Positions 1 through 64,000 of a stretch of 64,000 nucleotides of DNA are shown here, piece by piece. Source of the DNA: Agromyces protaetiae (lineage in GTDB: Bacteria; Actinomycetota; Actinomycetes; Actinomycetales; Microbacteriaceae); NCBI RefSeq assembly GCF_004135405.1, contig NZ_CP035491.1:682001-746000 (forward strand). Direction: 5' to 3'. Under the pieces are notes generated by a model that was given only the letters and a program-made list of their open reading frames with translations, made no database searches and was not told the DNA's origin. Made by a program: the position numbers and the translations under genes. Every line of letters starts with the position of its first letter. The stretch's first letter is position 1.

Positions 1-2
1 AG

Positions 3-212
3 GTCGTGTCGAAGCCGACGTCGGGCGCGTGGTCGTTCCTCGGCAACGTCGTGTGGGTGCTCCTCGCGGGCTGGTGGCTCGCGCTCGAGCATCTGCTCAC
101 GGGGCTCGTGCTCTGCCTCACGATCATCGGCATCCCGCTCGGCATCGCGAACTTCAAGCTCATCCCGGTCTCGCTCGCCCCGCTCGGCAAAGAGATCGTC
201 GACAAGCCTTGA
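3..212 (+). CDS. YccF domain protein, C-terminal part (5' end outside window)
   Basis: About 70 residues matching the second half of YccF inner-membrane proteins: a segment reading GWWLALEHLLTG, then LTIIGIPLGIANFKL and a closing PLGKEIVD. Actinobacterial YccF proteins are usually about 130 residues with two such repeats. The frame is open to the window edge and reads V-V-S-K-P just before the GTG at 6, which fits the linker between the two repeats. I therefore read this as a 5'-truncated gene and not a 68-residue protein started at 6. The family is an integral membrane protein of unknown role. Its stop codon overlaps the next start by one base (TGATG), so the two genes are probably translated together. 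Confidence 0.8.
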   Translation, partial: VVSKPTSGAWSFLGNVVWVLLAGWWLALEHLLTGLVLCLTIIGIPLGIANFKLIPVSLAPLGKEIVDKP

Positions 213-868
213 TGCAGACGATCCAGCTCGGCGGCTTCGCCCAGTCCCCCGGCATGACCGCGCTGTTCGGCGTTGGGCTCGGCGGCCTCCTGCTCATCCC
301 TGCGGTGCTGCTCACCGACATCCGCTGGCTCATCGCGGGGCTCATCGCGATCCCGACGCTGATCGTGGCGATCGCCGTCCTGCTCGCCGCGGTCTACCCC
401 AGGGTGGACGCCGACTTCGCGACCGGCACGGTGCGCATCCGCTCCAAGACGGTGCCGATCGCCTCGATCACGCGCGTGACCCGCAGCCTCTCGACCGCCC
501 GCACTCGCGGGGCTCAACTGCATCGCGCGACCACGGGCACGACGGAGGAGCACGGGTACGTCCGCGGCCGCTACCTCGAGTACCGTCTGCAGTCGACGAC
601 CGGCGCGACGGCTCGCGTCCTCGTCACCGGCACGCCCTTCAGCGGCATCACGGCCCAAGGTGCGGCGGTGCTGCACCATCTGATCGGCTCGGCGCCGATC
701 GCCGAGCCGATCGACCCCGACGGGCGGCCGATCCCTCCCGAAGCTCAGGCCGTCCCCGACGGGCGCTTCACGACCGGTCGGCCTCACTTCGTCGGCCGCG
801 CATTCCTGCTCCACGAGCTCGCGACGGCGCATGGGCTCGTCCCGACGGGAGTCACCGGCCCCGCCTAG
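212..868 (+). CDS. hypothetical membrane protein with two N-terminal TM helices
   Basis: 218 residues starting at the ATG that overlaps the YccF stop. Residues about 13-34 and 36-58 are two hydrophobic helices. The rest is a soluble domain containing a PRVDADFATGTVRI beta-strand stretch that resembles bacterial-PH-type folds behind paired helices, but I do not recognise a named family. The C-terminus overlaps the annotated ATG of the MATE gene by 38 nt, and its TAG stop lies inside a TAGGCT hexamer that may be the promoter of that gene. The frame has consistently GC-rich third positions, so it is a real gene. Function unknown. Confidence 0.75.
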   Translation: MQTIQLGGFAQSPGMTALFGVGLGGLLLIPAVLLTDIRWLIAGLIAIPTLIVAIAVLLAAVYPRVDADFATGTVRIRSKTVPIASITRVTRSLSTARTRGAQLHRATTGTTEEHGYVRGRYLEYRLQSTTGATARVLVTGTPFSGITAQGAAVLHHLIGSAPIAEPIDPDGRPIPPEAQAVPDGRFTTGRPHFVGRAFLLHELATAHGLVPTGVTGPA

Positions 869-2246
869 GCTCGGAGTCATCGACATCAGAGCCACGCCCT
901 CCGACTCCGCCGCCGACCGGCGCGCGGTCGATCGCGACATCCTGCGGCTCGCCGTGCCCGCGCTCGGCGCGCTCATCGCCGAGCCGCTCTTCCTGCTCGC
1001 CGACACGGCGATGGTGGGGCACCTGGGCGCGGTGCCGCTCGCGGGGCTCGGGCTCGCGGCGGCGATCCTGCAGACGATCATCGGGCTCATGGTGTTCCTC
1101 GCCTACGCGACGACCCCGGCCGTCGCGCGTCGGCTCGGCGCGGGCGACGAGCGGGGCGCGGTCGCGGCGGGCATCGACGGACTCTGGCTCGCACTCGGCA
1201 TCGGCATCGTGCTCGCGGTCGCGGGGTGGTTCGCGAGCCCCTGGCTCGTCGGGGCGTTCGGAGCGACCGAGGATGTCTCGGCCGAGGCATCCACCTATCT
1301 GTCGATCTCGATGGCGGGGCTGCCCGCGATGCTGCTCGTGTTCGCGGCCACCGGGCTCCTCCGCGGCCTGCAAGACACGCGCACGCCGCTGTGGGTCGCC
1401 GGCATCGGGTTCGGCGTCAACATCGTGCTCAATTGCGTGTTCATCTACGTCGCGGGCTGGGGCCTCGCGGGGTCGGCGACGGGCACCGTCATCGCACAGT
1501 GGGGCATGGTCGCCGTGTACCTCGCAGTCGTCTGGCGGCACGCCGCGCGCGCAGGCGCGAGCCCGTGGCCGCACCACGCCGGCGTGCTGCGCGGGGCTGC
1601 ATCGGGCGGGTGGCTGTTCCTCCGCACGGCGAGCCTGCGGGTCGCGCTCCTCGTCGCGACGTGGTCGGCGACGGCGCTCGGGCCCGACGAGCTCGCGGCC
1701 TACCAGATCGTCATCTCGCTCTACTTCACGCTCGGCTTCGCACTCGACGCGCTCGCGATCGCGGCGCAGGCGCTCGTCGGTCGCGGGCTCGGAGCGGAGG
1801 ATGTCTCGCACGTGCGCGCCGTGCTCAAGCGGTGCCTGCAGTGGGGGCTCATCGCGGGTGCGGTCGCGGGCGTCGTCGTCATCGCGCTCGCGTGGGTGCT
1901 CCCCGCGCTCTTCACGTCGTCTGAAACCGTGCGGGCGATGCTGCCGCCCTCGCTCGTCGTGCTCGGGCTCTCCGCCCCGCTCGGCGGCGTCGTGTTCGTG
2001 CTCGACGGCGTGCTCATCGGGGCGGGCGACGCCCGCTACCTCGCGTGGACCGGCCTCGTGAACCTCGCGGTCTACATCCCGCTCGCGCTCGGCGTCGTGC
2101 AGTGGGCGAACGGGGCGGGGCACGAGGCATCCGTCGCCCTCGCCCTCATGACGGCCGCGTTCGTCATCGGCTATCTCGCCGCCCGCTGCGTGACCCTCGC
2201 GCTCCGCGCGCGCGGGGCGAAGTGGATGGTGACGGGGGCGCCGTGA
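831..2246 (+). CDS. MATE-family (DinF-like) multidrug efflux transporter
   Basis: 471 residues from the ATG at 831, with the twelve hydrophobic segments of MATE exporters. The first helices read LAVPALGALIAEPLFLLADTAMVGHLG, the N-terminal MATE signature, and a second pseudo-repeat starts near residue 260. It probably exchanges cations for drugs or metabolites across the cell membrane. The start is uncertain. ATG 831 overlaps the previous gene by 38 nt. In the same frame, a TAGGCT hexamer at 866-871 followed by seven bases ends at an ATC (879), exactly the geometry of leaderless starts elsewhere in the window. No ATG, GTG or TTG lies between 834 and the first helix. Confidence 0.88.
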   Translation: MGSSRRESPAPPRLGVIDIRATPSDSAADRRAVDRDILRLAVPALGALIAEPLFLLADTAMVGHLGAVPLAGLGLAAAILQTIIGLMVFLAYATTPAVARRLGAGDERGAVAAGIDGLWLALGIGIVLAVAGWFASPWLVGAFGATEDVSAEASTYLSISMAGLPAMLLVFAATGLLRGLQDTRTPLWVAGIGFGVNIVLNCVFIYVAGWGLAGSATGTVIAQWGMVAVYLAVVWRHAARAGASPWPHHAGVLRGAASGGWLFLRTASLRVALLVATWSATALGPDELAAYQIVISLYFTLGFALDALAIAAQALVGRGLGAEDVSHVRAVLKRCLQWGLIAGAVAGVVVIALAWVLPALFTSSETVRAMLPPSLVVLGLSAPLGGVVFVLDGVLIGAGDARYLAWTGLVNLAVYIPLALGVVQWANGAGHEASVALALMTAAFVIGYLAARCVTLALRARGAKWMVTGAP

Positions 2247-2264
2247 TGCACCCGGCTTCAACTG

Positions 2265-2398: not shown

Positions 2399-3463
2399 CT
2401 ACGCGCGCACGCGCGCCGTCGTGTCGCCGATGTGCAGCGTGCTCGTGAACGCGACCGACTCGGGCTCCTCGCCCGCGAGCATGCGCACGACGGCGTCGCC
2501 CGCGGCACGGCCCTTGTCGACCGACGGCTGGTCGAGCGTCGTGAGATCGTGCTGCAGGCCGTCGACCGTGATGCCGTCGAACCCGAGCACGCTGAGGTCT
2601 GCCGGCACGGCGATGCCGAGCTCTTCAGCGGCGCGGATGACGCCCGCGGCGAGCAGGTCGCTCTGCGCGATGATCGCCGTAGGGCGGTCGGCGGAGTCGA
2701 CGTCGAGCAGCACGTGTGCGGCCGCGCGGCCCTCTTCGACCGAGCTCGCTCGGCCCGCTACGGCGCGCGCGTCGGGGAACACCGCCCGCGCGCCCGCGAG
2801 CCGCTCGATCGGCGTGGTGCTCGTCGCCTGTGCCTCGAGCTCGGCGGTCACCCGACCGCGGGTGCGCGCCGCGTCGAGCGGCAGCGTCACGATGCCGACC
2901 TTCGTGTGGCCGAGCTCGCGCAGGTACTCGGCGCCGCGACGGGTGGCGGCGGTGTTATCGATCGTGATCTCGGGGATGCCGTCGCCCGGTGCGCCCTCGA
3001 TCGCGACGGTCGGGATGCCCCGGCGGCGGAGCGCGGCGACGGAGTCGGCGAGCCGCGGGCTGCAGCCGATGAGCACGACGGCGTCGACGGGCGCGCTCTC
3101 GACCGAGACGGGGGCGTCGGCCTCGCCCGTGTCGGTGAGGAGCAGGAGGCCCGCGCGGAGGGGCGCGATGCCCTCGGCGATGCCGTCGAGCATCCGGATC
3201 TTCACGGGGTCGAGGAAGGCCGCGCGCACGCGCTCCTCGATGACGACGCCGACGATGCCCGAGCGGCCCTGCCGGAGCGACCGGGCGCGGGGGTCGGGTC
3301 CGGCGTAGCCGAGCTCGGTCGCGGCCGCGAGCACACGCTCTTTCGTGGCATCCGACACCGGGCCGGAGCCGCTGAACGCGAGCGACGCGGTCGACGCCGA
3401 GACGCCGGCTTTCGCGGCGACGTCGGCGAGGGTGGGATGCCTCGGCGCGGACTCGGTGGACAT
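2399..3463 (-). CDS. LacI/GalR-family transcriptional regulator
   Basis: 354 residues from the ATG at 3463, chosen because the typical LacI start (PTLADVAAKAGVSASTASLAFSG) begins 10 residues later and the frame upstream only crosses repeats. Residues about 11-60 are the helix-turn-helix and hinge; the rest is a periplasmic-binding-protein-like effector domain with SVLGFDGITV near the C-terminus. The effector is unknown, though LacI proteins usually bind a sugar. A perfect 14-bp palindrome TCGAATCGATTCGA lies 66 bp upstream of the start, and two more copies lie upstream of the MFS gene at 7080. This suggests autoregulation and control of that transporter. Confidence 0.93.
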   Translation of the reverse strand: MSTESAPRHPTLADVAAKAGVSASTASLAFSGSGPVSDATKERVLAAATELGYAGPDPRARSLRQGRSGIVGVVIEERVRAAFLDPVKIRMLDGIAEGIAPLRAGLLLLTDTGEADAPVSVESAPVDAVVLIGCSPRLADSVAALRRRGIPTVAIEGAPGDGIPEITIDNTAATRRGAEYLRELGHTKVGIVTLPLDAARTRGRVTAELEAQATSTTPIERLAGARAVFPDARAVAGRASSVEEGRAAAHVLLDVDSADRPTAIIAQSDLLAAGVIRAAEELGIAVPADLSVLGFDGITVDGLQHDLTTLDQPSVDKGRAAGDAVVRMLAGEEPESVAFTSTLHIGDTTARVRA

Positions 3464-4509: not shown

Positions 4510-4537
4510 GAGCGGCAATGACAGGGGGCCGGATGCC

Positions 4538-5713
<1,176 letters not shown>

Positions 5714-5715: not shown

Positions 5716-6759
5716 TCAGACCTCCGTCCAGTCGAGGATGACCTTGCCGACGCCCGCCGCGCGGGCGGTGTCGAACGCCTGGCTCCAGTCACGGGCAGGG
5801 TAGCGCTCGGAGATGACGGATGCCACGCGCCCCCGCAGCTCCTCGCTCGTCTGGAGCATCGCGCTCATCGAGTTCCAGGTCTCGAACATCTCGCGGCCGT
5901 AGACGCCCTTGAGGGTCAGCATGTGGGTGACGACCTTGCCCCAGTCGATCGCGTACGGCTCGCTCGGCAGCCCGAGCATCGCGATGCGACCGCCGTGGTT
6001 CATGTTCTCGATCATCTCGGGGAGGGCCTTCGCCGATCCGCTCATCTCGAAGCCGACGTCGAAGCCCTCGCGCATGCCGAGCCGACGCTGCGATTCGACG
6101 ATGCGTTCGGCCGAGACATCCACGACGTCGTCGGCGCCCATGGCGCGGGCCAGCTCGAGGCGTGCGGGCGAGACATCCGTCGCGACGACGAAGCGCGCGC
6201 CCACATGGCGGGCGACCGCGATCGACATGAGGCCGATGGGGCCGCAGCCCGTGACGAGCACGTCTTCGCCGACGACCGAGTACGCGAGGGCCGTGTGGAC
6301 GGCGTTGCCGAACGGGTCGAAGACGGCGCCGACCTCGGGGTCGACGGGTGAGTGGTGCACCCACACGTTCGCGCCGGGGATGACGATGTACTCGGCGAAG
6401 GCGCCGTCGCGGTGGAGGCCGACGCCCTGGGTGCGGATGCACATCTGGCGGCGGCCGGCACGGCAGTTGCGGCACATGCCGCACACGACGTGGCCTTCGC
6501 CAGACACGTGGTCGCCGACGGCGACGTCGTGCACGAGCGGGCCGACCTCGACGACTTCGCCGTAGAACTCGTGCCCGGGGATGAGGGGGGTCGCGATCTC
6601 GGCGGCGGCCCAGTCGTCCCACGCCTCGATGTGGAGGTCGGTGCCGCAGATGCCGGTGCGAAGCACCCGGATCTTGACATCGGCGGGGCGCGTCACGGGC
6701 TCTGGGCGGTCGGTGAACTCGAACCCCGCGCCAGGCGCGGCCTTGAAGAGTGCCTTCAC
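5716..6759 (-). CDS. tdh: L-threonine 3-dehydrogenase
   Basis: 347 residues from the GTG at 6759, chosen because [10 protein letters not shown] aligns with the usual Tdh N-terminus and a GAGG lies just upstream; an ATG at 6846 would add 29 unlikely residues. A zinc-dependent medium-chain dehydrogenase: catalytic zinc motifs CGTDLH and GHEFYGEV, four structural-zinc cysteines in [15 protein letters not shown], and Rossmann GCGPIGLM. It oxidises threonine to 2-amino-3-oxobutyrate with NAD, passing it to Kbl. Confidence 0.94.
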
Positions 6760-7079: not shown

Positions 7080-8365
7080 ATGGCCCACGAGGCATCCGTC
7101 GATAGCGTTGACGTCGTGACCGACGACGCGACCGCGACACCCGGGCCTGCGCGCAGCCCCCGCGCGCTGCGCGCGTGGCGCAACGCCGTCTTCGCCGTGT
7201 TCTTCCTCTCGGGCTCAGCATGGCGAGCTGGGTCGCCCGCATCCCCGCCGTGCGCGACTTCAACGAGCTCACGACGCAGGGCGTCGGCCTCGTGATCCTC
7301 GCGGGCTCGATCGCGTCGGTGGTCGGCCTTGTCGTGGCGCCGCTCGTCATCGGCCGCTTCGGCCCGCGCACGGGCATGGCCGCGACCCTCATCGTCGTCG
7401 CCGTCGGACTCGTCTCGATCGGCATCGGCTCGTCGGTCGTGCCGTCGATCCCGCTCGTCGTCCTCGGCCTCGCGCTCTTCGGGTTCGGCAACGGCGCCGT
7501 CGACGTCATCATGAACGTCGACGCGGCCGAGGTCGAACGCGAGCTCGGCCGCACGGTCATGCCCCTCATGCACGCCTTCTTCAGCTTCGGCACCGTCGCC
7601 GGCGCGGGCCTCGCGGCCGGGGCGTCCGCCCTCGCAATCGACGTCGCGCCGCACCTCGCGGTCGTCGCCGTCGTCATCGTCGTCGCCGTGCTCGTCGCCG
7701 TGCGCTTCGTGCCGGTGCGCGACGCCTACGGCGTGACGGATGCCTCGGCCGACGCCGCACCCCGCACGACCTTCTGGACGCGCGTGCGCAAGAACCTCGC
7801 CGTGTGGGCCGACCTGCGGCTCCTGCTCATCGGCCTCGTCATGCTCGGCATGGCCTTCGCCGAGGGCAGCGCGAACGACTGGATCGCCCTCGCCGTCGTC
7901 GACGGCCACCACATGGACGCGACGACCGCCGCGGCGATCTTCACGGTCTTCACCATCGCCATGACCGCCGCACGCGTCATCGGCGGACCCGTGCTCGACC
8001 GGTTCGGCCGGGTGCCCGTCATCCGCACGCTCGCCGTCATCGGCGCTCTCGGCCTCGGCCTGTTCATCTTCGGCACCGAGCCGTGGATGCTCGTCGTCGG
8101 CACGATCCTCTGGGGCGTCGGCTGCTCGCTCGGGTTCCCCGTCGGCATGTCGGCCGCCGCCGACGTGCCCGACCGCGCCGAGTCGGCCGCGCGCGTGTCG
8201 GCGGTTGCCATGATCGGCTACACGGCGTTCCTCGTCGGCCCGCCGCTGCTGGGCTTCCTCGGGCAGCACTTCGGGATTCTGAACGCGCTGCTCGTGCTGC
8301 TGGGGCTGCTCGTGCTGGCCGGGCTCGCCGCGCCGTCGGTGCGGGAGCGCGCTCCCCGCGACTGA
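7080..8365 (+). pseudogene. MFS transporter, reading frame broken by one missing base
   Basis: The ATG at 7080 (GAGGAG just upstream) reads 44 residues to WRNAVFAVFFLSG and then loses frame. The next frame resumes with LSMASWVARIPAVRDFN and continues as a normal 12-helix MFS protein to 8365. The junction is TCGGGCTCAGC at 7210-7220. Adding one G to the GGG run (or a C) restores a continuous 428-residue protein. The full-length homologous body argues for a recent lesion or a sequence error. The family (YbjJ/fucose-permease-like) exports or imports small molecules. Two LacI operators upstream suggest control by the regulator at 2399-3463. Confidence 0.85.
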
Positions 8366-8368: not shown

Positions 8369-8929
8369 TCAGCGCCGCACGCGGTACGCGAGGAAGACGA
8401 CGCCGTTGTCGAAGCGGCGCTCGTCGACGAGTTCGAGGTCGAGCCGCACGTCGTCGGGGAAGAGCGGCAGACCGCCGCCCACGATGACGGGCCACACGTA
8501 GACCTCGACGTCGTCGACGATCCCGGCGCGGAAGGCCGCCGCAGCGAGCGTGGGCCCGCCGACCTCGACGTCGCGATCGGATGCCTCCACGAACGCCCGC
8601 ACGGCGTCGGCGTCGAACGTCCGCTCGAGGCGCGTCCGCACTGTGCTCACCTCCTCGGGCGCGAGCGTCGACGAGTACACGACCTTGTCGGCGTCGAGCC
8701 AGTACCGCTGGAACTCGGCCATCGCGGGCGAGTCCGAGACATCCAGGTCGTCCCACACGCTCATGACCTCGTAGAGCCGACGGCCGAAGAGGTAGGTGCC
8801 GATGCCGTCGAGCCGGTCGCTGATGAACTGGTGCAGCGCCTCGTCGGGCATCCCCCAGTCGATCGAGCCGTCGCGGTCGGCGAAGTACCCGTCGAGGGTG
8901 ATCGACCCCGAGACGATGAGGCGGCCCAT
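8369..8929 (-). CDS. dihydrofolate reductase-fold (RibD C-terminal-like) protein
   Basis: 186 residues: SGSITLDGYFADRDGSIDWG at the N-terminus, GRRLYEVM near residue 50 and VGGPTLAAAAF near 125. This is the RibD C-terminal/DHFR-like family of NADPH reductases with unassigned substrates, and not the folate enzyme itself. Its ATG overlaps the TGA of the preceding membrane gene if that gene is frame-corrected. It is convergent with the MFS gene, with stops 3 nt apart. Confidence 0.88.
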   Translation of the reverse strand: MGRLIVSGSITLDGYFADRDGSIDWGMPDEALHQFISDRLDGIGTYLFGRRLYEVMSVWDDLDVSDSPAMAEFQRYWLDADKVVYSSTLAPEEVSTVRTRLERTFDADAVRAFVEASDRDVEVGGPTLAAAAFRAGIVDDVEVYVWPVIVGGGLPLFPDDVRLDLELVDERRFDNGVVFLAYRVRR

Positions 8930-9326: not shown

Positions 9327-10184
9327 TCACCGCGTCGCGGCGGTCGCCAGCAGCTCTTCCGACTTCTCCCAGAGCCCCGCCGCGAGGGCGGCGTCGGTCG
9401 CGAGCGGGTTGAGGCGCGTGCCCGCCCGACGCTTCACGTAGAACTCGCCCGACTCCCAGTCGACGCCGGGCCGCCCCTCGGCGAGCCAGACGAGCTGGTC
9501 GGCGCCGTCGGCGGGCGTGCCCGCGCGGAAGAGTCGCATTGCGAGCTTGCTGCCGGTGAGGAACTTGAACAGCGGGCTCGTCGTCTCGGACCCGAACGCC
9601 GTGCCCGCGATGATGCCCGGGTAGAAGGCCGCCGACGACAGGCCCTGGGCACGGTAGCGACGGTCGAGCTCCTTCGTGAAGAGCACGTTCTCGAGCTTGA
9701 CGGCGTTGTACGCCTTGATGGGCTCGAGCCCGGCGCGGTCGAAGTCGAGGTCGTCGAGGTCGAGCGTCTTGACGTTGCCTCCGTGCAGGGTCGTGGTCTG
9801 AATGACGGATGCCTCGGACGCGACGAGCTTGTCCATCAGCAGGGTCGTGAGCAGGAAGCCCGCGAGGTGGTTGACCTGGAAGGTCTGCTCGAAGCCGTCG
9901 ACGGTCTTGGCAGGATCGCCGAAAGGTCGGCCGGCGTTGTTGGCGAGGACGTCGATGCGCGGGTAGGCGGCGTCGAGGTCGCGTGCGAGCCTGCGCACAT
10001 CGTCGAGCCGCGTGAAGTCGGCGAGGAAGTGGTCGGTGCCGATCTCGCGGGCGACGGCCGCGGTCTTCTCGGGCGAGCGCCCGACGACCACGACGTGGTG
10101 CCCGCGCTTCGCGAGCTCGCGTGCGGCGGCCGCGCCGATGCCGTCGCTCGCGCCGGTGATGACGATGACCTTCTGCGATCCCAT
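9327..10184 (-). CDS. SDR-family oxidoreductase, retinol dehydrogenase-like
   Basis: 285 residues. TGASDGIG at 10-17, NNAG near 88, active-site YNAVK near 163. The usual catalytic serine position reads QTTTLHG, so threonine may replace it. The long C-terminus is like RDH/WWOX-type SDRs that reduce lipophilic carbonyls. It is divergent from a TetR gene with a 45-bp symmetrical operator between them, so expression is probably repressed until a ligand is present. Confidence 0.87.
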   Translation of the reverse strand: MGSQKVIVITGASDGIGAAAARELAKRGHHVVVVGRSPEKTAAVAREIGTDHFLADFTRLDDVRRLARDLDAAYPRIDVLANNAGRPFGDPAKTVDGFEQTFQVNHLAGFLLTTLLMDKLVASEASVIQTTTLHGGNVKTLDLDDLDFDRAGLEPIKAYNAVKLENVLFTKELDRRYRAQGLSSAAFYPGIIAGTAFGSETTSPLFKFLTGSKLAMRLFRAGTPADGADQLVWLAEGRPGVDWESGEFYVKRRAGTRLNPLATDAALAAGLWEKSEELLATAATR

Positions 10185-10881: not shown

Positions 10882-10906
10882 GCGCGGGCGCTGCGGCGCG
10901 GATGCC

Positions 10907-13285: not shown

Positions 13286-13325
13286 TCGGCGCGCGCCCGA
13301 GACATCCGGAACCGACAGACCGCGC

Positions 13326-15328: not shown

Positions 15329-15583
15329 CGACCGGCCCCCTTCGACTCGATCGGCGCCGCCCCCACGGCGCCGTGCGCGGCGTCGGCCCTGCTTCGGGAC
15401 ATCCGCCGATCTCAGCGTAGGCGCGGTGCGCGCTGCGCGCCAGAGGGGGCCCGAAAGCCCCGGCTGCCTCACTGAACCCCGCCGCCATTCGATGAATCGT
15501 GCGCATCAGAGGCATCCAGCGCAGTTTTCTTGCGTTTCACGCACGAAAGCGCTGAATCCTCAGGTATTTCACAGAAACCCCTT

Positions 15584-18616: not shown

Positions 18617-18645
18617 TCGGAGGCATCCGGCTCACGTGAATCGGC

Positions 18646-18675: not shown

Positions 18676-18748
18676 GTCGCGTTCGAGGCGGGTTCGGGGC
18701 ATCCGGATGTCTCTGAGCGCGCGCGTCTTCGAAAGCCGCGCCTCCCGG

Positions 18749-48512: not shown

Positions 48513-48640
48513 CTCCAGCTCCGCCCGCGATCGCGAACGAGCCTACCGAGCGGCGTGCGTTCGCGCGCGGCCGGGAGAGTCGGGCGGATGCCTCGGAGCG
48601 CGGTGGTCGAGGAGCGAAGCGTCTCGAGACCCCGCGACCC

Positions 48641-54400: not shown

Positions 54401-55168
54401 CATGGCGGGCACGAGCGCGAGCCACACGAGCCCGAGCCAGAGCCACGTGCGGATGCGCGCGGCGCGTGCGGCGACGACCATCGTGCCGGCCGCGAGGAGC
54501 GATCCGACGCCGCCGAGCGCCCAGCGCACTCCGTCGGTCGCACCCGCCTCGGTGAACGCCTGCACGTCGAGGGCGAGGAAGACCATGCCGAGCGCGCCGA
54601 GCGCCTCGGCGGAGAACTGCACTCCGCGCCGCTGCAGCAGGAGCGCGCCGCCGAGGAAGCCCGCGGTCACGAGCGCGATCACGAGCGTGCGCATGCCGAA
54701 TCCGACGTCGGGGTTCAAGAACGTGAAGACGATGGCGGCGATCGCGAGCAAGCCCGCGCCCGCGACGGCGAGCACCGACTGCACGCTGATCTGCGAGGCG
54801 GCACCCGGCGCCACCGGCGCCACCGCAACCGCTGCCGCTGCCGCTGCGGGGGCCGGTGCCGGCCGCGACGGTGCCGACGCTGCAGACGGGCCGGTCGAGA
54901 CATCCGCCCGCTCGACGACGCGTCGCGATCCGAGCGCCTCGGCTCGCTCATCTGCGACCAGCACCGGTACCGCAGCCACGAGTCTCGCCCGCTCGAGCAC
55001 CGCGTGCGCGGCCCGCTCGGAGGCAGCGTACAGCCCCGCGCCGACCTCACCTCGGAGGTCGGCGCCGCAGGCGCCGCACACGGGCACCGCGCCGAGCCGC
55101 GCGTTGCAGCGGGGACAGCGTGAGGCATCCAGCAGGTACTCGGCCGCTTGCGCGCTCCAGTCGCTCAT
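51407..55168 (-). CDS. 1,253-residue polytopic membrane protein (SCO7613-type)
   Basis: The N-terminal zinc ribbon CPRCNARLGAVPVCGACGADL (18-39), a soluble helical stretch and an Ala/Pro-rich linker precede about 35-40 hydrophobic helices that fill the rest. The helix content, size and zinc ribbon match the actinobacterial family named after SCO7613 C-terminal domain. Function unknown. It may assemble as a large channel or sensor. A -10 hexamer sits 6 nt before the ATG. Confidence 0.85.
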   Translation of the reverse strand: MSDWSAQAAEYLLDASRCPRCNARLGAVPVCGACGADLRGEVGAGLYAASERAAHAVLERARLVAAVPVLVADERAEALGSRRVVERADVSTGPSAASAPSRPAPAPAAAAAAVAVAPVAPGAASQISVQSVLAVAGAGLLAIAAIVFTFLNPDVGFGMRTLVIALVTAGFLGGALLLQRRGVQFSAEALGALGMVFLALDVQAFTEAGATDGVRWALGGVGSLLAAGTMVVAARAARIRTWLWLGLVWLALVPAMFGYSGGGWFAAWGHVGVVAVAALAIHVLGWFGLAFGSALRAERVTLGVLQFAAVGVVLLQLPFLWSPSNALAVLGRAALLAILAVLAVVTARRWLRRTWSAFAGVLAAAAAALVPFAWVSLTESPWLVAVVPLAAGIVLVATGWVRSSEWVAAAQLRTGVLVVLLASALPAVNIAFFAGGISLLDSVFRPYGAARLLASESGADLGLAALLGLAAASAAVIGHAFAVRRVDPAGHATSLLTTGLWLGAAAAAAFAGWTGIGPVWRVVIVLVGAAAATLLVLVPGSRVARAGARLRAPFVVFAQVAVGQAVLLSWIDADLTVPVGIAAVAVLLIVARPFRSPVRVVHHAVAYAYALVVLATALDRAGLELIPVLTLVTSAGALFALAATLTPRVDARNWYAVLGVTSVPFLIGVGSVLVERSAWTALSTGLIFLLAFTLVLTRRVGLSRLVRAGAAALLVPALSVVVVSLAAGWFAQSGSPIALPVIAGIVAVAVPATPALTALLVRRGRSEQTGSAVRVAIESSSLVTAVIAVLLSLVREASGLGTTTAVLVILGLGGAAASVFAGRRYGWWAAAAAWTGALWCLLALNGVAVLEPYTLPPALAAVVVGVIAVARRGSGGPLVASGLAAAIVPSVVLVATGAAGAEVRVWALFAAAAVLTVAGGWLGGRWLADSGHIARLRTTALVAAIGASAALPFEAIRWASGVDLAPGVADEQVMLPVLGISVLAAAVAAVAGSLLRRGGERGLRDGAFGRKLAASGWTLAPAFVFLVAGPIFAVRVHPFPIWTLWGLMTALLLTSLASVVLARRGAPLRGILPPFWFVYGVAWITGVAGWSARELRVEVFSLPLGLAVLAAGIIGMGVQREASARRSLDSWPLGFTRSWWLLGPGIALTVLPSILATGTDPQLYRPIMVIGLALVAILVGATRKLAAPFILGLAVLPLENVVVFAAQLDRTVGAMPWWITLATAGGVLLAIAVGSEGRANQGRGVVARMRELR

Positions 55169-55180: not shown

Positions 55181-55302
55181 TGAATGCCCGAGACCCTCGG
55201 CGTCAGTCTTCAGAACGACTGTGGAGAAGACCTCAGGATGACCGGATGTGGAGGAGCCGTCCCGGCGTGGCCCCTGAGCACAGGGCGCCCCCGAGACATC
55301 CG

Positions 55303-56018: not shown

Positions 56019-57026
56019 ATGAGCAGCTCTCGCATCCTCTTCATCGGCGGCACCGGCACCATCAGTTCGGCGTGCGTGAAGCGCGCGGTCGCCGTCGGAC
56101 ACGACGTGACCGTGTTGAATCGCGGCGGCACGTCGGCCGAGCGGCCGCTGCCCGAAGGCGTTCGCGAGGTCGTCGCCGACATCCGGGATGCCTCGGCCGC
56201 GCGTGCGGCGATCGACGCCGCCGAACGCGACGGCGGCGCCTTCGACGTCGTCGCCGACTTCGTCGCGTTCACGACCGGGCACATCGAGACCGACTTCGAG
56301 CTCTTCGAGGGCCGTGTCGGCCAGTACGTCTTCATCAGTTCGGCGTCGGCCTACCAGACGCCGCCGTCGCGCCTGCCCGTGACCGAGTCGACGCCGCTCC
56401 GCAACCCGTATTGGCAGTACTCGCGCGAGAAGATCGCGTGCGAAGACCTCCTCGTGGGCGCGTACCGCGACCGCGGCTTCCCCGCCACGATCGTCCGCCC
56501 CTCGCACACCTACGACCGCACCCGCCTGCCGACCCTCGGCGGCTGGACCGACATCGCGCGCATGCGCGCCGGCAAGCCCGTCGTCGTCCACGGCGACGGC
56601 ACGAGCCTCTGGACGGTCACCGACGCGCGCGACTTCGCCGTCGCGTTCGTCGGGCTCCTGCACAACCCCGTCGCGGTCGGCGACGTCTTCCACATCACGA
56701 GCGACCACGCCCCGACGTGGAACCAGATCTACGGATGGCTCGGGGCCGCCGCCGGCGTCGAACCCGAACTGGTGCACGTGGCGAGCGACACCATCGCGGC
56801 CGTCCACCCCGAATGGGGCCCGGGCCTCGTCGGCGACAAGTCGAACTCGATGGTGTTCGACAACTCCAAGGTCAAGGCGCTCGTCCCCGAGTTCACCACG
56901 ACGATGACGTTCGACCGCGCCGCCCGCGAGATCATCGACTGGTACGACGCGCACCCCGAGGCGCAGGTCGTCGACCCCGTCGCCGACGCCGCGTTCGAGC
57001 GGATCCTCGCGCTGCCGCGCGGCTGA
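56019..57026 (+). CDS. NAD-dependent epimerase/dehydratase family protein
   Basis: 335 residues from ATG 56019. Extended SDR: FIGGTGTISSACVKRAV, FISSASAYQTPP and the YSREKIACEDLL lysine region; here the Tyr-x3-Lys is Y-S-R-E-K. GPGLVGDKSNSMVFDNSKVKAL is typical of the actinobacterial NAD-dependent epimerases near carbohydrate esterases. Probably sugar-nucleotide related. TGACGTCA lies directly before the start. Confidence 0.87.
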   Translation: MSSSRILFIGGTGTISSACVKRAVAVGHDVTVLNRGGTSAERPLPEGVREVVADIRDASAARAAIDAAERDGGAFDVVADFVAFTTGHIETDFELFEGRVGQYVFISSASAYQTPPSRLPVTESTPLRNPYWQYSREKIACEDLLVGAYRDRGFPATIVRPSHTYDRTRLPTLGGWTDIARMRAGKPVVVHGDGTSLWTVTDARDFAVAFVGLLHNPVAVGDVFHITSDHAPTWNQIYGWLGAAAGVEPELVHVASDTIAAVHPEWGPGLVGDKSNSMVFDNSKVKALVPEFTTTMTFDRAAREIIDWYDAHPEAQVVDPVADAAFERILALPRG

Positions 57027-57032: not shown

Positions 57033-58013
57033 CTACTCGACCGGCGCCGCGAGTCGCGCCGCGAGCCACTCCGCTTGCCGCTGCCACTGCACGGCCTGCC
57101 CGCCCTCGTGCTCGTTGAAGGCGTACTCGACGACCTCGGCTCCGACGCCCCACCGGTTCGCGGCCGCGTACACCGTCGAGGGCGGACAGATCGGGTCGAG
57201 GAGCGCGACCGAGAAGAGTGCCGGCGCCGTCGCGCGGAGCGCGAAGTTCGCCCCGTCGAAGTACGACAAGGTGCGGAGCACCCGCTCCGAGGCATCCCGA
57301 TGCACCGACAGGTAGCGCACGACCTCGTTGTACGGGTCGCGGTCGGTGAAGCCGACCGCGCGCTCGAAGTGGCAGAGAAACGGCACGTCGGGCATCGCGG
57401 CGACGAGCCCCTCGCTGAGCCCTGCGGCGGCGATCGCGATGCCGCCGCCCTGGCTGATGCCCGTGACGGCAACGCGCGACTCGTCGACGGCGTCGAGCGA
57501 GCGGACGGCGTCGACGGCGAGCGCGGCGTCGGTGAAGACACGCCGGTAGTAGTACTCGGCGGGGTCGTGGATGCCTCGCGTCATGAACCCGGGACTCGAG
57601 GCGCCCGTGCCGTGCGGGTCGGGAGTGTCGCCGCCCGCGCCCCAGCCGCTGCCCTGCCCGCGCGTGTCCATGAGGAACCACGCGTAGCCCGCCACGGCCC
57701 AGCCGAGCCGCTCGTGCGGGAGCCCGCGGCCTCCGCCGTAGCCGAGGTACTCGACGATCGTCGGGAGCGGCGCGGTCGCGCCGGCCGGCACGATGAACCA
57801 GCCCGAGACGCGGTCGCCGCCGAAGCCGCTGAACTTCACGTCGTAGACGTCGACGAGCGTGAGCGGCGAGTCGATCTTCGTGAGCGTCGGCGGGGTCGCG
57901 AGCGCGCGCGATTCGGCGAGGGTCGTGCGCCAGAACTCGTCGAAGTCGGCGGGTTCGGCGATCTCGGGGCGGTACGCCCGCAGCTCCGCGGGCGCCAGGT
58001 CGAAGCGAGGCAT
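57033..58013 (-). CDS. CE7 acetylxylan esterase/cephalosporin-C deacetylase
   Basis: 326 residues from ATG 58013. FDLAPAELRAYRPEIAEPADFDEFW is the CE7 start; the triad is Ser187 (GISQGGG), Asp273 (LLDPICPP) and His302 (NEHEGG). Removes acetyl groups from short xylo-oligosaccharides and antibiotics; cytosolic. Convergent with the epimerase, 6 nt apart. Confidence 0.93.
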   Translation of the reverse strand: MPRFDLAPAELRAYRPEIAEPADFDEFWRTTLAESRALATPPTLTKIDSPLTLVDVYDVKFSGFGGDRVSGWFIVPAGATAPLPTIVEYLGYGGGRGLPHERLGWAVAGYAWFLMDTRGQGSGWGAGGDTPDPHGTGASSPGFMTRGIHDPAEYYYRRVFTDAALAVDAVRSLDAVDESRVAVTGISQGGGIAIAAAGLSEGLVAAMPDVPFLCHFERAVGFTDRDPYNEVVRYLSVHRDASERVLRTLSYFDGANFALRATAPALFSVALLDPICPPSTVYAAANRWGVGAEVVEYAFNEHEGGQAVQWQRQAEWLAARLAAPVE

Positions 58014-58025: not shown

Positions 58026-58110
58026 TTCGAGCGGCGGAGGCCTCGGGGGCGGATGTCTCGGGCGTGCGCTACGCTCACCCGCTCGGCGCGTCCGCCCCCT
58101 CCACCCCTCG

Positions 58111-58217: not shown

Positions 58218-59147
58218 TCAGCGGGCGCGGTGGTCGACGAACTCCATGCGTGGGCCGCGGCGCGGGCGGCCGCGGAGGCCCGCGGCGCCGAGCAACCGGA
58301 TGACCCGGTAGCGGTGACCGGCCCAGGGCGCGAGCGCCTCGAGCATCTCGTCGTCGGTCATGTCGCGGCCCGCGAGGGCGTGGCCGACGTAGTTCGCCAG
58401 GTGGTAGTCGCCGACCGAGACGGCGTCGGCGTCGCCGAGGGCTCGTTGGGCGACCTCGGCCGCCGTCCACGGGCCGACGCCCGGGAAATGGGTGAGCCTC
58501 GCCGCGGCGTCGGCGGGAGACATCCGCGCCGCTTCGTCGATGCGCGACGCGAACCGCGCGGCGTGCGAGATCGTCGCGGAGCGACGCGGGTCGACGCCCG
58601 CACGGTGCCATTCCCACACCGGCACGACCGCCCACACCTCGGGAGTGGGCGAGACGCGCATCGGCCGCGGCGTCGGCCCGGGCGCGACCTCGCCGAACCG
58701 GTTGAGCAGGTGTCGCCACGACGCGTGCGCCTGCAGCGTGATGACCTTCTGCTCGAGGATCGCGGGCACGAGCGCCTCGAACACCGCGGCCGTGCGCGGG
58801 ATGCGGAGGCCGGGATTCCGCCGGTGCGCGTCGCGCAGCACGTCGAGGATCGGGTCGAAGTCGGACGTGTCGTCGCGCTCGCCCACGAGCTCGGGCGCCT
58901 GCGCGACGACGTCGCCGGCCCCCGGCCCCCACCCTTCGGCGCGGACGCGCCCCTCGGGCAGTTGCGTGAGCCGCAGCGTCGCGAGCCCCGACGACGTGCG
59001 CGTCGCCCGCCAGATCGACCCCGAGGCATCCGTCATGAACGACGGGTCGCCCGGACCGCGGCGCAGGCTCCCGACGGTCTGGCGCAGATCGGTCGGATGC
59101 GTCGGCGCCCACTCTGCGGCATGCTCGGCGATCACGGGGTCAAGCAT
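58218..59147 (-). CDS. DNA-3-methyladenine glycosylase (AlkA/HhH-GPD)
   Basis: 309 residues from ATG 59147. The helix-hairpin-helix LTHFPGVGPWTAAEVAQRALG and the catalytic Asp in AVSVGDYHLANYVG are clear, and the helix before them carries LEQKVITLQAHASWRHLL. Removes alkylated purines in base-excision repair. The frame continues upstream without family residues, hence the chosen start. Confidence 0.9.
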   Translation of the reverse strand: MLDPVIAEHAAEWAPTHPTDLRQTVGSLRRGPGDPSFMTDASGSIWRATRTSSGLATLRLTQLPEGRVRAEGWGPGAGDVVAQAPELVGERDDTSDFDPILDVLRDAHRRNPGLRIPRTAAVFEALVPAILEQKVITLQAHASWRHLLNRFGEVAPGPTPRPMRVSPTPEVWAVVPVWEWHRAGVDPRRSATISHAARFASRIDEAARMSPADAAARLTHFPGVGPWTAAEVAQRALGDADAVSVGDYHLANYVGHALAGRDMTDDEMLEALAPWAGHRYRVIRLLGAAGLRGRPRRGPRMEFVDHRAR

Positions 59148-59225: not shown

Positions 59226-59861
59226 ATGGGGAAACTGCACGTCGACCTGTTCATGACGCTCGACGGCGTCGTCCAAGCGCCCGGCGGGCCCGACGAAGAC
59301 CCCGAGGGCGGGTTTCCGTTCGGCGGCTGGCAGGCGCCCATGTTCGACGACGAGGTCGGCGCGAGCGTCGACGAGGGCATCCAGCGGCTCGACGCGCTCC
59401 TGCTCGGCCGGAAGACCTACGACATCTTCGCCGGGTACTGGCCGACGGCCGAGATCGACGGCGAGATCGCCGAGATCTTCAATCGCGTGCCGAAGTACGT
59501 CGCGTCGCGCTCACCCCTCGAGCTCACGTGGGCGGGAACCGAGCAACTCGGCGACGACGTCGCGGCCGAGGTCGAGCGCATCAAGGGGCTGCACGACGAG
59601 ATCCACGTGATCGGCAGCTCCGACCTCCTGCAGAGCCTCCTCGCGTACGACCTCGTCGACCGGCTCAACCTGTGGGTGTACCCGATCACGCTCGGCATCG
59701 GGAAGCGCGCGTTCGGCGAGGGGGTGATCCCGGCGAAGTTCGCGCTCGACGCGCCGCCCCTCGCAGGATCGAGCGGAGCGCTCGTACTGCACTACTCGCG
59801 CGTGCCCGGAACGCCCGAGACGGGCGACATGACCGACCCCGCGGAACGATCCGCCGAGTGA
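59226..59861 (+). CDS. dihydrofolate reductase-fold (RibD C-terminal-like) protein
   Basis: 211 residues. KLHVDLFMTLDGVVQAPGGPDEDP, LLGRKTYDIFAGYWP and HVIGSSDLLQSLLAYDLVDRLNLWVYP are family landmarks. Same superfamily as the gene at 8369 but a different branch. NADPH-dependent reductase of unknown substrate. Confidence 0.88.
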   Translation: MGKLHVDLFMTLDGVVQAPGGPDEDPEGGFPFGGWQAPMFDDEVGASVDEGIQRLDALLLGRKTYDIFAGYWPTAEIDGEIAEIFNRVPKYVASRSPLELTWAGTEQLGDDVAAEVERIKGLHDEIHVIGSSDLLQSLLAYDLVDRLNLWVYPITLGIGKRAFGEGVIPAKFALDAPPLAGSSGALVLHYSRVPGTPETGDMTDPAERSAE

Positions 59862-59991
59862 GGCATCCGTTCACGCAGATTCATTGCGCTCACATCGAGG
59901 ATGCGCAGGATACCTGCACAGAGAACCGGATCGTGTGCGGAGCGTTGCGCGTACCCTCGGATGAGTTTGCTTCAGAACGAGAGGATGCCTC

Positions 59992-61425
59992 GTGACCGCC
60001 GATTCCACGACGACCGCCGCCGCAGGCGCGGCGCCAGAGGCATCCGCCCGACCGCTCGCCGACCGCATGCACGAGGTGACCTCCGAGAACGAGCGCATCG
60101 TCGACCTCGTGCTCGACTACTCGCGCCGCCGGATCCTCTCGAGCGACACCCCGCTCGACAAGCCCGAGACCGAGGCCGAGCTGCAGCGCCTCGCGGGCCG
60201 CACGATCTCCGAGAAGGGCCTCGGAGCCGACCGTGCCCTGTCGATCTTCGAGCACGTGCTCGCGCCCGCGTGCATCACGACCGACCACCCGCAGTACCTC
60301 TCGTTCATCCCGCTCGCGCCCACGAAGGCCGCGACGGCGTTCGACCTCGTCGTCTCGGCGAGCGCCCTCTACGGCGGCTCGTGGCTCGAGGGCGCGGGCG
60401 CCGTCCACGCCGAGAACGAGGTGCTCACGTGGCTCGCATCCGAGTTCGGGCTGCCGGCCGGCGCGGGCGGCGTGTTCGTGCAGGGCGGCACGCTCGGCAA
60501 CCTGTCTGCGCTCGTCGCCGCGCGTGAGGCGGCTCGCGCGCACCGTCTTGAGAACGGCACCGAACCGCCCGCACGCTGGAAGGTCGTGTGCTCGGTCGAG
60601 GCGCACTCCTCGATCGCGTCCGCCGGTCGCATCATGGACGTCGACGTCGTGCCCGTGCCGTCGGGCCCGTCGGGCGCGCTCGAAGGCAAGGCCGTGCGTG
60701 CCGCACTCGAGGAGCACGGGGCATCCGTCTTCGCCGTCGTCGCGACCGGAGGCTCGACGAACTTCGGCATCGTCGACGACATCGCCTCGATCGCCACACT
60801 CAAAGCCGACTACGACTTCTGGCTGCACATCGACGGCGCCTACGGGCTCGCCGCGATGCTCTCGCCGCTCGGGCGGCCGTACTTCGCAGGCGTCGAAGCC
60901 GCCGACTCGGTCATCGTCGACCCGCACAAGTGGCTCTTCGCGCCGTTCGACGCGTGCGCCCTCATCTACCGCGACCCCGAGCTCGGGCGCCGCGCGCACA
61001 CGCAGCACGCCGAGTACCTCGACACGCTGACCGAGTCGACCGAGTGGAGCCCGTCCGACTATGCGGCCCACCTCACGCGCCGGGCGCGCGGCCTGCCGTT
61101 CTGGTTCTCGCTCGCGACGTACGGCGCCGCCGCCTACCGCGACGCGATCTCGGCGTCGATCACGCTCGCGCATGACATCGCCCGGGAGATCGAACGGCGA
61201 GACGGGTTCACCCTCGTACGGCAGCCGCAGCTGTCGGTCGTCGTGTTCGAGCGCGACGGGTGGGAGAAGGCCGACTACGACCGCTGGTCGTCGCGGCTGC
61301 TCGACGAACAGCGCGCGTTCGTCGTGCCGAGCTCCCACGCGGGCCGCACGAACACGCGCTTCGCGATCGTGAACCCGCGGACGACGTTCGAGCACCTGAC
61401 GGCGATCCTCGACACGATGGCGTGA
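59992..61425 (+). CDS. PLP-dependent group II decarboxylase
   Basis: 477 residues, GTG start behind GAGAGG. HPQYLSFIPLAPTKAATAFDLVV, VFVQGGTLGNLSALVAAREAA and the PLP lysine K313 in VIVDPHKWLFAPFDACALIY match the glutamate/aromatic amino acid decarboxylase family. Decarboxylates an aromatic or acidic amino acid; the substrate is not resolved. Confidence 0.92.
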   Translation: MTADSTTTAAAGAAPEASARPLADRMHEVTSENERIVDLVLDYSRRRILSSDTPLDKPETEAELQRLAGRTISEKGLGADRALSIFEHVLAPACITTDHPQYLSFIPLAPTKAATAFDLVVSASALYGGSWLEGAGAVHAENEVLTWLASEFGLPAGAGGVFVQGGTLGNLSALVAAREAARAHRLENGTEPPARWKVVCSVEAHSSIASAGRIMDVDVVPVPSGPSGALEGKAVRAALEEHGASVFAVVATGGSTNFGIVDDIASIATLKADYDFWLHIDGAYGLAAMLSPLGRPYFAGVEAADSVIVDPHKWLFAPFDACALIYRDPELGRRAHTQHAEYLDTLTESTEWSPSDYAAHLTRRARGLPFWFSLATYGAAAYRDAISASITLAHDIAREIERRDGFTLVRQPQLSVVVFERDGWEKADYDRWSSRLLDEQRAFVVPSSHAGRTNTRFAIVNPRTTFEHLTAILDTMA

Positions 61426-61562: not shown

Positions 61563-61567
61563 AGGCC

Positions 61568-62853: not shown

Positions 62854-62859
62854 TACCCT
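62854..62859 (+). promoter_or_regulatory. -10 hexamer TACCCT, leaderless start at 62867
   Basis: TACCCT, 7 nt, GTG 62867. Confidence 0.6.
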
Positions 62860-62866
62860 GGTCTCC

Positions 62867-63538
62867 GTGCATGAGGAACGGGGCGCAAGGGTCGCCCGGG
62901 GTGCGGCGGTCGCGGGTGTGGCGACGTTCGTCGCGTCGCTCGCGCACACCCTCGGCGGCGGGCTCGCGCCCGGACCGCTCGCGGTGGCGCTCGCGCTCGC
63001 GTTCTCGGTGCCGTTCTCGATTCTCGCCGTGGGCGGCAAGCGGTTCCGCCTGGCACGCGCCGGTTTCGCGGCGGTCGCCGCGCAGCTCGCGCTGCACACG
63101 CTGTATTCGCTCGGCTCGGGTGTTCCCGGCACGGGCGCCGGTTCGGTCGTCATGCAGCAGGCGGATGCCTCGGGGTCGGCCCTCCACGAACACCACGCCG
63201 CCGTCACGTCGTGGGCGTCGACCATGCCGACGATGGGCACGCCGAGCCTGCACGCCGCCGACCACGTCGACCACTTCGGCCCGTGGATGCTCGTCGCCCA
63301 CGCGGTCGCGGCGCTCGCGACGATCGGGGTCATCTGGCTGACCGTGCACGCGGTTTCGGTGCTCGCGGCCGCGGCCCGAGGCATCCGGATCGCCTTCGCC
63401 CTCGTCACCGCGACCCTCGCACCGCATCCGCTCGCCGCGCGCGCGGACGCCTTCGACCGTGCCGCCCCGTCGCTCCGCGACCGGCATCTGCTCTCCTGGC
63501 GGCACCGCGGCCCGCCGCTCGTGCTCGCGGCCGCCTGA
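62867..63538 (+). CDS. membrane protein with histidine-rich loop
   Basis: 223 residues, GTG start. Four hydrophobic stretches (about 10-30, 36-55, 63-80, 138-165). The external loop between helices 3 and 4 carries HEHHAAVTSW, MPTMGTPSLHAADHVDHFGPW, a probable metal-binding region. It precedes a YcnI-family gene, and such membrane proteins are found with copper genes ycnI/copC/copD, so a role in copper handling is likely but inferred. Confidence 0.75.
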   Translation: MHEERGARVARGAAVAGVATFVASLAHTLGGGLAPGPLAVALALAFSVPFSILAVGGKRFRLARAGFAAVAAQLALHTLYSLGSGVPGTGAGSVVMQQADASGSALHEHHAAVTSWASTMPTMGTPSLHAADHVDHFGPWMLVAHAVAALATIGVIWLTVHAVSVLAAAARGIRIAFALVTATLAPHPLAARADAFDRAAPSLRDRHLLSWRHRGPPLVLAAA

Positions 63539-63634
63539 CGGCCGCCCCGCGACATCCACTCACCTTCGAGCGCGCCGACCGCGCGTCGCTTCTCCGACGC
63601 TGCCGCGCGCACACCTGTGCAGAGAGCAGACCCC

Positions 63635-64000
63635 ATGACCACGAACCACCCCGCCACCAAGAACACCCGCACCCGCACGACCGTCGCCGCCTCCGCGGCG
63701 CTCGGCGGCGGCCTCCTCCTCGCCCTCGGCGCGCCGCTCGCGGCGTCGGCGCACGTGACGGGTACCCCGTCGAGCACCGCCGAGGGCTCGTACACCGTGA
63801 TCACGTTCAGCGTCGGCCACGGCTGCGAGGGCAGCCCGACGACGCGGCTCACGTTCACGATGCCCGAGGGCGTCGACCGCGTGACGCCGACCGTGAACCC
63901 GAACTGGACGATCGAGAAGGTCGTCGAAGACCTGCCCGAGCCGAAGAAGGACTCGCACGGCGCGAACCTCGTCGACCGCGACGCGAAGGTCGTCTACACG
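63635..64000 (+). CDS. YcnI-family copper-binding secreted protein (3' end outside window)
   Basis: 122 codons to the window edge. Signal peptide about 1-39 ending ASAHV, which leaves the N-terminal histidine exposed, the copper ligand of YcnI/DUF1775. TAEGSYTVITFSVGHGCEGSPTTRLTFTMPEG is the family beta-sandwich with its GHGCEGS turn. Exported copper chaperone-like protein, usually followed by copC/copD-like genes. Confidence 0.9.
   Translation, partial: MTTNHPATKNTRTRTTVAASAALGGGLLLALGAPLAASAHVTGTPSSTAEGSYTVITFSVGHGCEGSPTTRLTFTMPEGVDRVTPTVNPNWTIEKVVEDLPEPKKDSHGANLVDRDAKVVYT

Follow-up and report, generated by a model that had tools for sequence, protein, structure and literature searches.

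Uptake sequences are a textbook case of self-recognition in bacterial sex, and to our knowledge they are found only in two Gram-negative families. In Neisseria the uptake receptor is carried by type IVa pili, and ComP is a minor type IV pilin. The DNA uptake sequences (DUS) of the Neisseriaceae, which are read by ComP (PMC3868556), are described as occurring in thousands of copies with a constant core, dialects that follow phylogeny and inverted pairs associated with terminators (PMC3630211). Integrated conjugative elements have been located through an atypical distribution of DUS (PMC7371117). The uptake signal sequence (USS) of the Pasteurellaceae is a highly over-represented, non-palindromic word of 9 bp with two clade-specific spellings, AAGTGCGGT and ACAAGCGGT (PMC1626085). 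Among actinobacteria, tad clusters frequently accompany comEA and comEC, and transformation of Micrococcus luteus requires both of its tad clusters (PMC4322843). Here we describe GGATGYCTC, a word that recurs throughout a 64,000-nucleotide stretch (the window) of the chromosome of the soil actinobacterium Agromyces protaetiae (Microbacteriaceae). The window covers bases 682001-746000 of this study genome, G000; other G numbers denote the genomes of relatives. A prolyl oligopeptidase encoded in the window shares 84% identity with its counterpart in Agromyces agglutinans, and the top 22 loci listed in that comparison likewise belong to Agromyces. An initial annotation of the window had noticed the word and proposed several mechanisms for it. 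It had not considered uptake sequences, which fit more of the evidence. We see about an even chance that the word serves as a self-DNA tag for natural transformation, in the form of a DNA uptake sequence with a local dialect.

The window (71.2% GC) contains 69 exact copies, 34 on the plus and 35 on the minus strand, close to the 68 or so that had been counted by eye, whereas 100 dinucleotide-preserving shuffles yielded a mean of 1.69 and at most five. The single 3,683,091-base contig that forms the whole chromosome carries 1371 forward and 1328 reverse copies, 2,699 in total, against only 4 + 4 = 8 copies of the word read backwards, so the pattern is not limited to the window. Such abundance across the genome, in the hundreds or thousands and well beyond expectation, is also a mark of uptake sequences. 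In a 464 kb sample of G000, 366 copies gave the consensus c-GGATGYCTC-g, with C directly before the word in 76% and G directly after it in 86%. Single-base variants of the word numbered 0-23 each in this sample, with the exception of position 8 (A 44, C 96, G 110). Titles among the matches listed by a literature search for the exact word were all unrelated to the subject.

We examined how the copies sit in genes in a sample of 969 kb of G000 (26% of the genome, 719 copies), using our own codon-model gene calls instead of the annotation. The initial annotation had placed copies in all reading frames. This is only loosely true: of the 513 coding copies, 98 are spread over four minor strand/phase combinations and the other 415 lie in just two of the six, GAG-RCA-TCC and xxG-GAT-GYC-TCx. 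Permuting synonymous codons within each of 840 genes left 23.8 copies (sd 4.3, maximum 33, 30 runs) where 513 were observed. Overall, GCA makes up 6.8% of alanine codons, compared to 65.6% of those within Glu-Ala-Ser (EAS), and 155 of the 259 EAS tripeptides are spelled GAG GCA TCC. An earlier remark on rare codons was therefore correct, and the word dictates codons. The tripeptides encoded by the word are also about twice as frequent as residue frequencies predict (observed/expected: EAS 259/123, ETS 96/50, DAS 264/138, DVS 141/90). Since this enrichment amounts to 1.6 to 2.1 times expectation, the word seems to shape proteins rather than proteins producing the word. Both the permutation and the tripeptides support the initial claim of selection on the DNA word as such.

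Words of this kind are present in every one of the 60 Agromyces genomes searched. They form clade-specific dialects that share the core (C)GGATGNC, the main ones being GGATGYCTCG and CGGATGNCGCG. In these whole genomes GGATGYCTC occurs 151-2699 times and CGGATGNCGCG 184-2831 times (controls of the latter 7-45), and the stronger of the two reaches at least 116 per Mb in each of them. Counts per Mb of the YCTC and NCGCG forms anticorrelate across the 60 genomes (rho -0.60, p 4e-7). Further spellings are GYGGATGCCG in G017, CGGATGMCG in G005, CGGATGCCGCG in G002, G026 and G190, CGGATGNCGCG in G010, CGGATGCCTCG in G033 and G192, and ARCGGATGCC in Cryobacterium; no clear dialect was seen in 62 kb of G014. 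In most smaller samples, mixture-model logos of the dialects were distorted by the GC structure of codon positions, and only those of G000 and Cryobacterium were used, the latter backed by a second analysis. Some genomes carry both main dialects. G015, for instance, is high in both (GGATGYCTC 1036, CGGATGNCGCG 2196), perhaps a dialect switch in progress or a dual specificity.

A tree was built from the comEA locus, a single 3.7 kb locus, for 30 of the 60 Agromyces. These were the 30 best ComEA matches, a selection tilted to relatives of G000, and comprised 15 NCGCG, 7 YCTC and 8 mixed rows. The clear YCTC and NCGCG rows need 2 changes on this tree, and a three-way label needs 7, compared to a mean of 13.1 after shuffling, with 0 of 200 shuffles as low. 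Considering how few changes are needed, the dialect is largely inherited by clade. G000 and G192 are meeting long branches in the tree, and their sisterhood is unsure. A sharp consensus with clade-specific dialects is also what characterizes uptake sequences.

Outside the study genome, GGATGYCTC was counted 151-1734 times in 36 congeners and 8-61 times in 23 genomes from 19 other families of the order, where controls gave 4-24. Among 120 Microbacteriaceae genomes (85 genera), the core CGGATGNC, a measure that misses dialects departing from it, varies between 32 and 1425 per Mb. It is strongly raised, above 405 per Mb, in 64 of these and exceeds ten times the backward control in 22. The 139 genomes searched from other families of the order show about 70-405 per Mb, at most about five times the control, both ranges being read by eye. 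Within Microbacteriaceae the core is patchy: it stays below 320 per Mb in 19 of the 20 genomes of 1.8 Mb or less, with core/control ratios of 0.8-5.0 over all 20. For named loci no longer than 22 kb, we also set the CGGATGNC count against an order-2 Markov expectation. It was at least 2.7 times the expectation in 20 of 22 Agromyces, 7 of 7 Cryobacterium and 2 of 2 Salinibacterium loci, ranged from less than one to more than four times in Microbacterium, and was not clearly raised in five of six Leifsonia, two Rathayibacter, one Clavibacter and one Amnibacterium.

The sixth Leifsonia locus, from Leifsonia sp. Leaf264 (L084), has 37 copies of CGGATGNC versus 9.1 expected and prefers CGGATGCCGC; gain, loss or misnaming are candidate causes of this exception. 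GGATG itself is strongly avoided in G110 (L138 and L142), where 40 kb contain 19 copies and permuted words average 71. In G154 (L140) it is slightly low, with 33 copies in 20 kb versus an average of 38. In both whole genomes CGGATGNC is under the control count. A GGATG-specific, FokI-like restriction system is a possible cause. No obvious over-represented word pointing to an alternative dialect was found in the 40 kb of G110 or the 20 kb of G154.

Copy density in the 969 kb of G000 is 0.62 per kb in genes, 1.47 in co-directional gaps, 1.55 in divergent gaps and 2.96 in convergent gaps. Replichore polarity is absent, with 348 leading and 371 lagging copies (binomial p = 0.41) when the origin is assumed at base 1 and the terminus half-way. 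Spacing is approximately exponential save for an excess below 30 bp (32 versus 7.2 expected in 601 kb). Two kinds of pair account for most of this excess: inverted ones in hairpin order, and tandem ones with a spacing of exactly 18 bp. Inverted pairs in plus-minus order outnumber those in minus-plus order by 15 to 3 within 60 bp (601 kb) and by 25 to 13 within 80 bp (969 kb). Elsewhere the corresponding counts are 4:0 in G002, 5:2 in G010, 8:1 in G017, 1:0 in G004, 1:1 in G005 and 8:1 in the 22 named Agromyces loci, with no inverted pairs in the G033 and Cryobacterium sets. Judged by placement, the copies thus show the intergenic excess and the inverted pairs at gene ends that are typical of uptake sequences. 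The 969 kb also contain 17 tandem pairs with the 18-bp spacing, including the one at 48968-48994 of the window, in genes of both orientations and in gaps. One such pair was found in G004 and none in the other seven sets examined.

Individual copies turn over. The full word is retained in relatives at 29 of 255 aligned sites (11.4%), and a gap lies within 3 bases at 89 of the 255, versus 17.1% of 1,820 random words. No aligned site came from G017, G010, G023 or G024, which are four of the 30 sets of relatives. Conserved functional positions were ruled out as an explanation, as copies are retained less than random 9-mers and lie in gappier stretches.

The word is scarce in two mobile elements. 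In a contiguous 388 kb stretch of G000, the longest interval free of copies spans 49,971 bases (2943936-2993907), where 37 were expected (P 8e-17). At its right end, a serine recombinase (2991551-2993356) runs into tRNA-Pro (2993319-2993395), and copies resume 0.5 kb past this tRNA. The interval encodes a type IV secretion system coupling protein, a type I restriction R subunit and an MT-A70 methylase, and it is mostly a mobile element integrated at tRNA-Pro. The first genes at the left of the interval look chromosomal by eye. The second contig of G033 (83.6 kb) has five copies versus 33 expected from the density of the G033 chromosome, measured on 120 kb (P 2e-9). It is plasmid-like, with ParA-like, relaxase-like and transfer-like proteins that were judged by eye only. 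A 5.5 kb contig of G190 has zero copies and is too short to weigh. Scarcity in conjugative elements and plasmids is again a property of uptake sequences, seen here in two elements only. A further gap of 8.1 kb (3010840-3018931) is an rRNA operon (16S, 23S, 5S) and not a mobile element.

Candidate machinery for DNA uptake is encoded in G000. It includes a run of adjacent genes at 2839-2843 kb, consisting of comEA (228 aa, with SLBB and HHH domains), comEC and holA, and a Tad cluster at 3529-3533 kb with TadA (TIGR03819), two TadE-like proteins (NF041390 and TIGR03816), all above cut-off, and a Flp-like pilin recognized by eye. ComEC was detected in 118 of 120 Microbacteriaceae, ComEA in 58 of 60 Agromyces, and a TadA-type ATPase in 119 of the 120, 81 of them above the curated cut-off of a model that also gives low scores to related ATPases. 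With ComEC, ComEA and this ATPase, the competence machinery that an uptake sequence presupposes is present.

We suggest an uptake sequence because the word is asymmetric, 9-11 bp long, present in thousands of copies, without polarity, subject to turnover and spelled in dialects around a fixed core, and because of the hairpin pairs, the excess in convergent gaps, the scarcity in two mobile elements and the competence genes. Taken jointly, these features fit uptake sequences and no other system known to us, while each alone could be explained otherwise. The most likely interpretation, which we would put near even, is a tag for taking up self-DNA, recognized by a Tad/Flp pilus or by ComEA. A putative receptor at the cell surface would bind the word; a minor Tad/Flp pilin or ComEA, the DNA receptor, is the probable candidate. 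The pilus and ComEC would then import word-carrying fragments preferentially, and homologous recombination would insert them into the chromosome. Over-uptake of such fragments would let copies born by mutation spread, and, where compatible with the protein or RNA, these may be maintained at about one per 1.4 kb, whereas DNA arriving otherwise, in conjugative elements or plasmids, would lack copies. Drifting receptor specificity in a lineage would change the edges of the word around the constant (C)GGATGNC and so give rise to dialects.

Compared to the known systems, GGATGYCTC resembles the USS in length, asymmetry, over-representation and its two clade-specific spellings. The USS is a different, Gram-negative word whose specificity is known from uptake experiments, whereas Agromyces is a monoderm actinobacterium whose word is known from sequence alone. 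The Neisseriaceae DUS share the thousands of copies, the constant core, the phylogeny-following dialects and the inverted pairs, but they are read by ComP, and PilM was not detected in most Agromyces. Since most congeners lack PilM, the reader would have to be something other than ComP on a type IVa pilus. Micrococcus luteus, an actinobacterium with ComEA, ComEC and Tad clusters, has what is likely the machinery in Agromyces, although the term "uptake sequence" is absent from the main text of its report (PMC4322843). Among the matches listed in the open-licence literature, we found neither an uptake sequence in a Gram-positive nor a DNA-uptake test or such a word in Agromyces.

Several observations weigh against an uptake sequence. 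PilM was found in only 7 of 60 Agromyces, and the 53 others all have more than 100 copies per Mb of one dialect. PilM shows no association with the strength of the stronger dialect across the 60 (p 0.41, kinship ignored), and 8 of the 20 core-richest genomes of the family lack it. Tad and ComEC are near universal in the family, even where the core is near background. The depletion in mobile DNA concerns two elements and would also be expected for any host tag that accumulates slowly. Finally, retention below that of random 9-mers (0.114 vs 0.180) fits turnover and is no positive evidence for uptake.

Across the family, PilM was detected in 62 of 120 genomes (61 above cut-off) and PilT above cut-off in 61 of 120. 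The core is denser in genomes with PilM, at a median of 579 per Mb versus 312 in the others (p 3e-5; among genomes of at least 2 Mb, p 0.012), ignoring kinship. Unlike the Neisseria-type DUS, where word-carrying species have a type IVa pilus, PilM occurs in 7 and the word in 60 of 60 Agromyces. We therefore rejected the type IVa pilus as a requirement, given the 53 genomes without detected PilM that all carry the word; the alternative, a very recent loss in many lineages at once, is unlikely. Tad and ComEC were dropped as discriminating markers, as their near universality in the family makes them uninformative. In G000 itself, PilB/PilT-type ATPases, a PilC-type protein, pilins, PilM and PilO are encoded together at 1488-1501 kb in a type IVa pilus operon. 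The presence of this operon (L134, G000:C1 1489001-1509000) in a genus where PilM is this rare suggests patchy gain or loss.

More tentatively, and at somewhat less than an even chance, we propose that Agromyces and many other Microbacteriaceae take up self-DNA in a sequence-specific way, using dialects that drift. This would be the first such system in Gram-positives, working without type IVa pili, with the word read by a Tad/Flp component or ComEA. If so, uptake sequences would have arisen independently once more, this time in a monoderm phylum, and dozens of species, mostly lacking type IVa pili, would use dialects of them. This would offer a system for asking how uptake words start, spread and change spelling, and natural competence would be predicted in Agromyces and in core-carrying Microbacterium and Cryobacterium. 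If the word does not serve uptake, it would be something equally interesting: a tag across the chromosome, so far unexplained, that alters codon choice and even the sequences of proteins.

An unlikely explanation, though one to be taken seriously, is a word maintained inside the cell by a DNA methyltransferase together with mismatch repair or a similar process, as may apply to highly iterated palindromes (HIPs). Such a process would likewise yield dialects, no strand bias and absence from recent arrivals. The initial annotation drew a comparison to cyanobacterial HIP1, which is fair as an analogy: HIP1 is hugely over-represented, has alternate words in some lineages and is accompanied by a methyltransferase of matching specificity (PMC4390886). 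However, HIP1 is a palindrome tied to methyltransferases, whereas the Agromyces word is asymmetric, and selection acts on 9-11 bases, more than a GGATG methylase core. Nor is this core raised, at 3.69 per kb in G000 versus 4.06 per kb in four Leifsonia loci without the long word. The same numbers do not support the earlier suggestion of a methylation or restriction-linked site, nor selection on the 5-bp GGATG, a site of FokI-type restriction-modification. The excess of flanks over permuted cores was also discarded as a measure: it cannot show a tag, because GGATG is raised relative to permuted words in nearly every set, including Leifsonia (2.48 times, G000 2.65 times).

We think it quite improbable that the word is bound by a protein that organises, replicates or repairs the chromosome and has a specificity drifting between species. 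The chromosome-wide spread and the depletion in the integrated element and the plasmid-like contig could suit such a nucleoid tag, and the 17 tandem pairs in G000 could suit cooperative binding. Yet leading and lagging copies are balanced, the 18-bp pairs are, among the sets examined, nearly confined to G000, and we know of no chromosome-binding protein with thousands of 9-11 bp sites per genome. Polar recombination or segregation signals such as Chi, the FtsK orienting polar sequences (KOPS) or the architecture imparting sequences (AIMS) are also short, non-palindromic and over-represented, but the strand polarity that they require, towards the terminus or along the leading strand, is missing under the assumed origin and terminus, which makes them a very remote prospect and leaves both the segregation signal and the Chi-like recombination signal proposed initially without support. 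The initial reading is hence partly supported: selection on the word is borne out by the data, but most of the mechanisms offered for it are not. A by-product of codon usage, protein composition or base composition, to which the two favoured phases encoding small polar residues might point, deserves almost no credence, being refuted by the synonymous permutation, the higher density in intergenic than in coding DNA and the tripeptide excess.

The copies in the window are given below, each an exact match. Of the positions quoted in the initial annotation, 1271, 3435 and 28386 are exact, while five are off by 1-5 bases and should read 7738 (not 7739), 13036 (not 13037), 41844 (not 41848), 56186 (not 56188) and 63163 (not 63168).

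1271-1279, plus, GGATGTCTC; inverted (hairpin) pair with 1284-1292
1284-1292, minus, GGATGCCTC; hairpin partner of 1271-1279
1799-1807, plus, GGATGTCTC
2124-2132, minus, GGATGCCTC
3435-3443, plus, GGATGCCTC
4531-4539, plus, GGATGCCTC
6113-6121, minus, GGATGTCTC
6170-6178, minus, GGATGTCTC
7089-7097, minus, GGATGCCTC
7738-7746, plus, GGATGCCTC
8579-8587, plus, GGATGCCTC
8736-8744, minus, GGATGTCTC
9807-9815, plus, GGATGCCTC
10900-10908, plus, GGATGCCTC
11552-11560, minus, GGATGCCTC
13036-13044, plus, GGATGCCTC
13299-13307, minus, GGATGTCTC
13960-13968, minus, GGATGTCTC
15509-15517, minus, GGATGCCTC
17325-17333, minus, GGATGTCTC
18620-18628, minus, GGATGCCTC
18705-18713, plus, GGATGTCTC
19529-19537, minus, GGATGTCTC
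19806-19814, minus, GGATGCCTC
20384-20392, plus, GGATGTCTC
22060-22068, minus, GGATGCCTC
24500-24508, plus, GGATGTCTC
24613-24621, plus, GGATGCCTC
25337-25345, minus, GGATGCCTC
26141-26149, plus, GGATGCCTC
26560-26568, plus, GGATGCCTC
27356-27364, minus, GGATGTCTC
27371-27379, minus, GGATGTCTC
28386-28394, plus, GGATGCCTC
28425-28433, plus, GGATGCCTC
28804-28812, minus, GGATGTCTC
31248-31256, minus, GGATGTCTC
31599-31607, plus, GGATGCCTC
31720-31728, plus, GGATGTCTC
32201-32209, plus, GGATGCCTC
32752-32760, minus, GGATGCCTC
36698-36706, plus, GGATGCCTC
36900-36908, minus, GGATGTCTC
37862-37870, plus, GGATGCCTC
38530-38538, plus, GGATGCCTC
41522-41530, plus, GGATGTCTC
41844-41852, minus, GGATGCCTC
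42531-42539, minus, GGATGCCTC
43419-43427, plus, GGATGTCTC
48586-48594, plus, GGATGCCTC
48968-48976, minus, GGATGTCTC; 18-bp tandem pair with 48986-48994
48986-48994, minus, GGATGTCTC; tandem partner of 48968-48976
49674-49682, plus, GGATGCCTC
50022-50030, plus, GGATGCCTC
51800-51808, plus, GGATGCCTC
54897-54905, minus, GGATGTCTC
55122-55130, minus, GGATGCCTC
55293-55301, minus, GGATGTCTC
56186-56194, plus, GGATGCCTC
57289-57297, minus, GGATGCCTC
57569-57577, plus, GGATGCCTC
58051-58059, plus, GGATGTCTC
58517-58525, minus, GGATGTCTC
59023-59031, minus, GGATGCCTC
59860-59868, minus, GGATGCCTC
59983-59991, plus, GGATGCCTC; inverted pair with 60037-60045
60037-60045, minus, GGATGCCTC; inverted partner of 59983-59991
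63163-63171, plus, GGATGCCTC
63378-63386, minus, GGATGCCTC

The window also encodes, at 15761-18616, an Immune-inhibitor-A-like M6 metallopeptidase with MAM and VEG domains.

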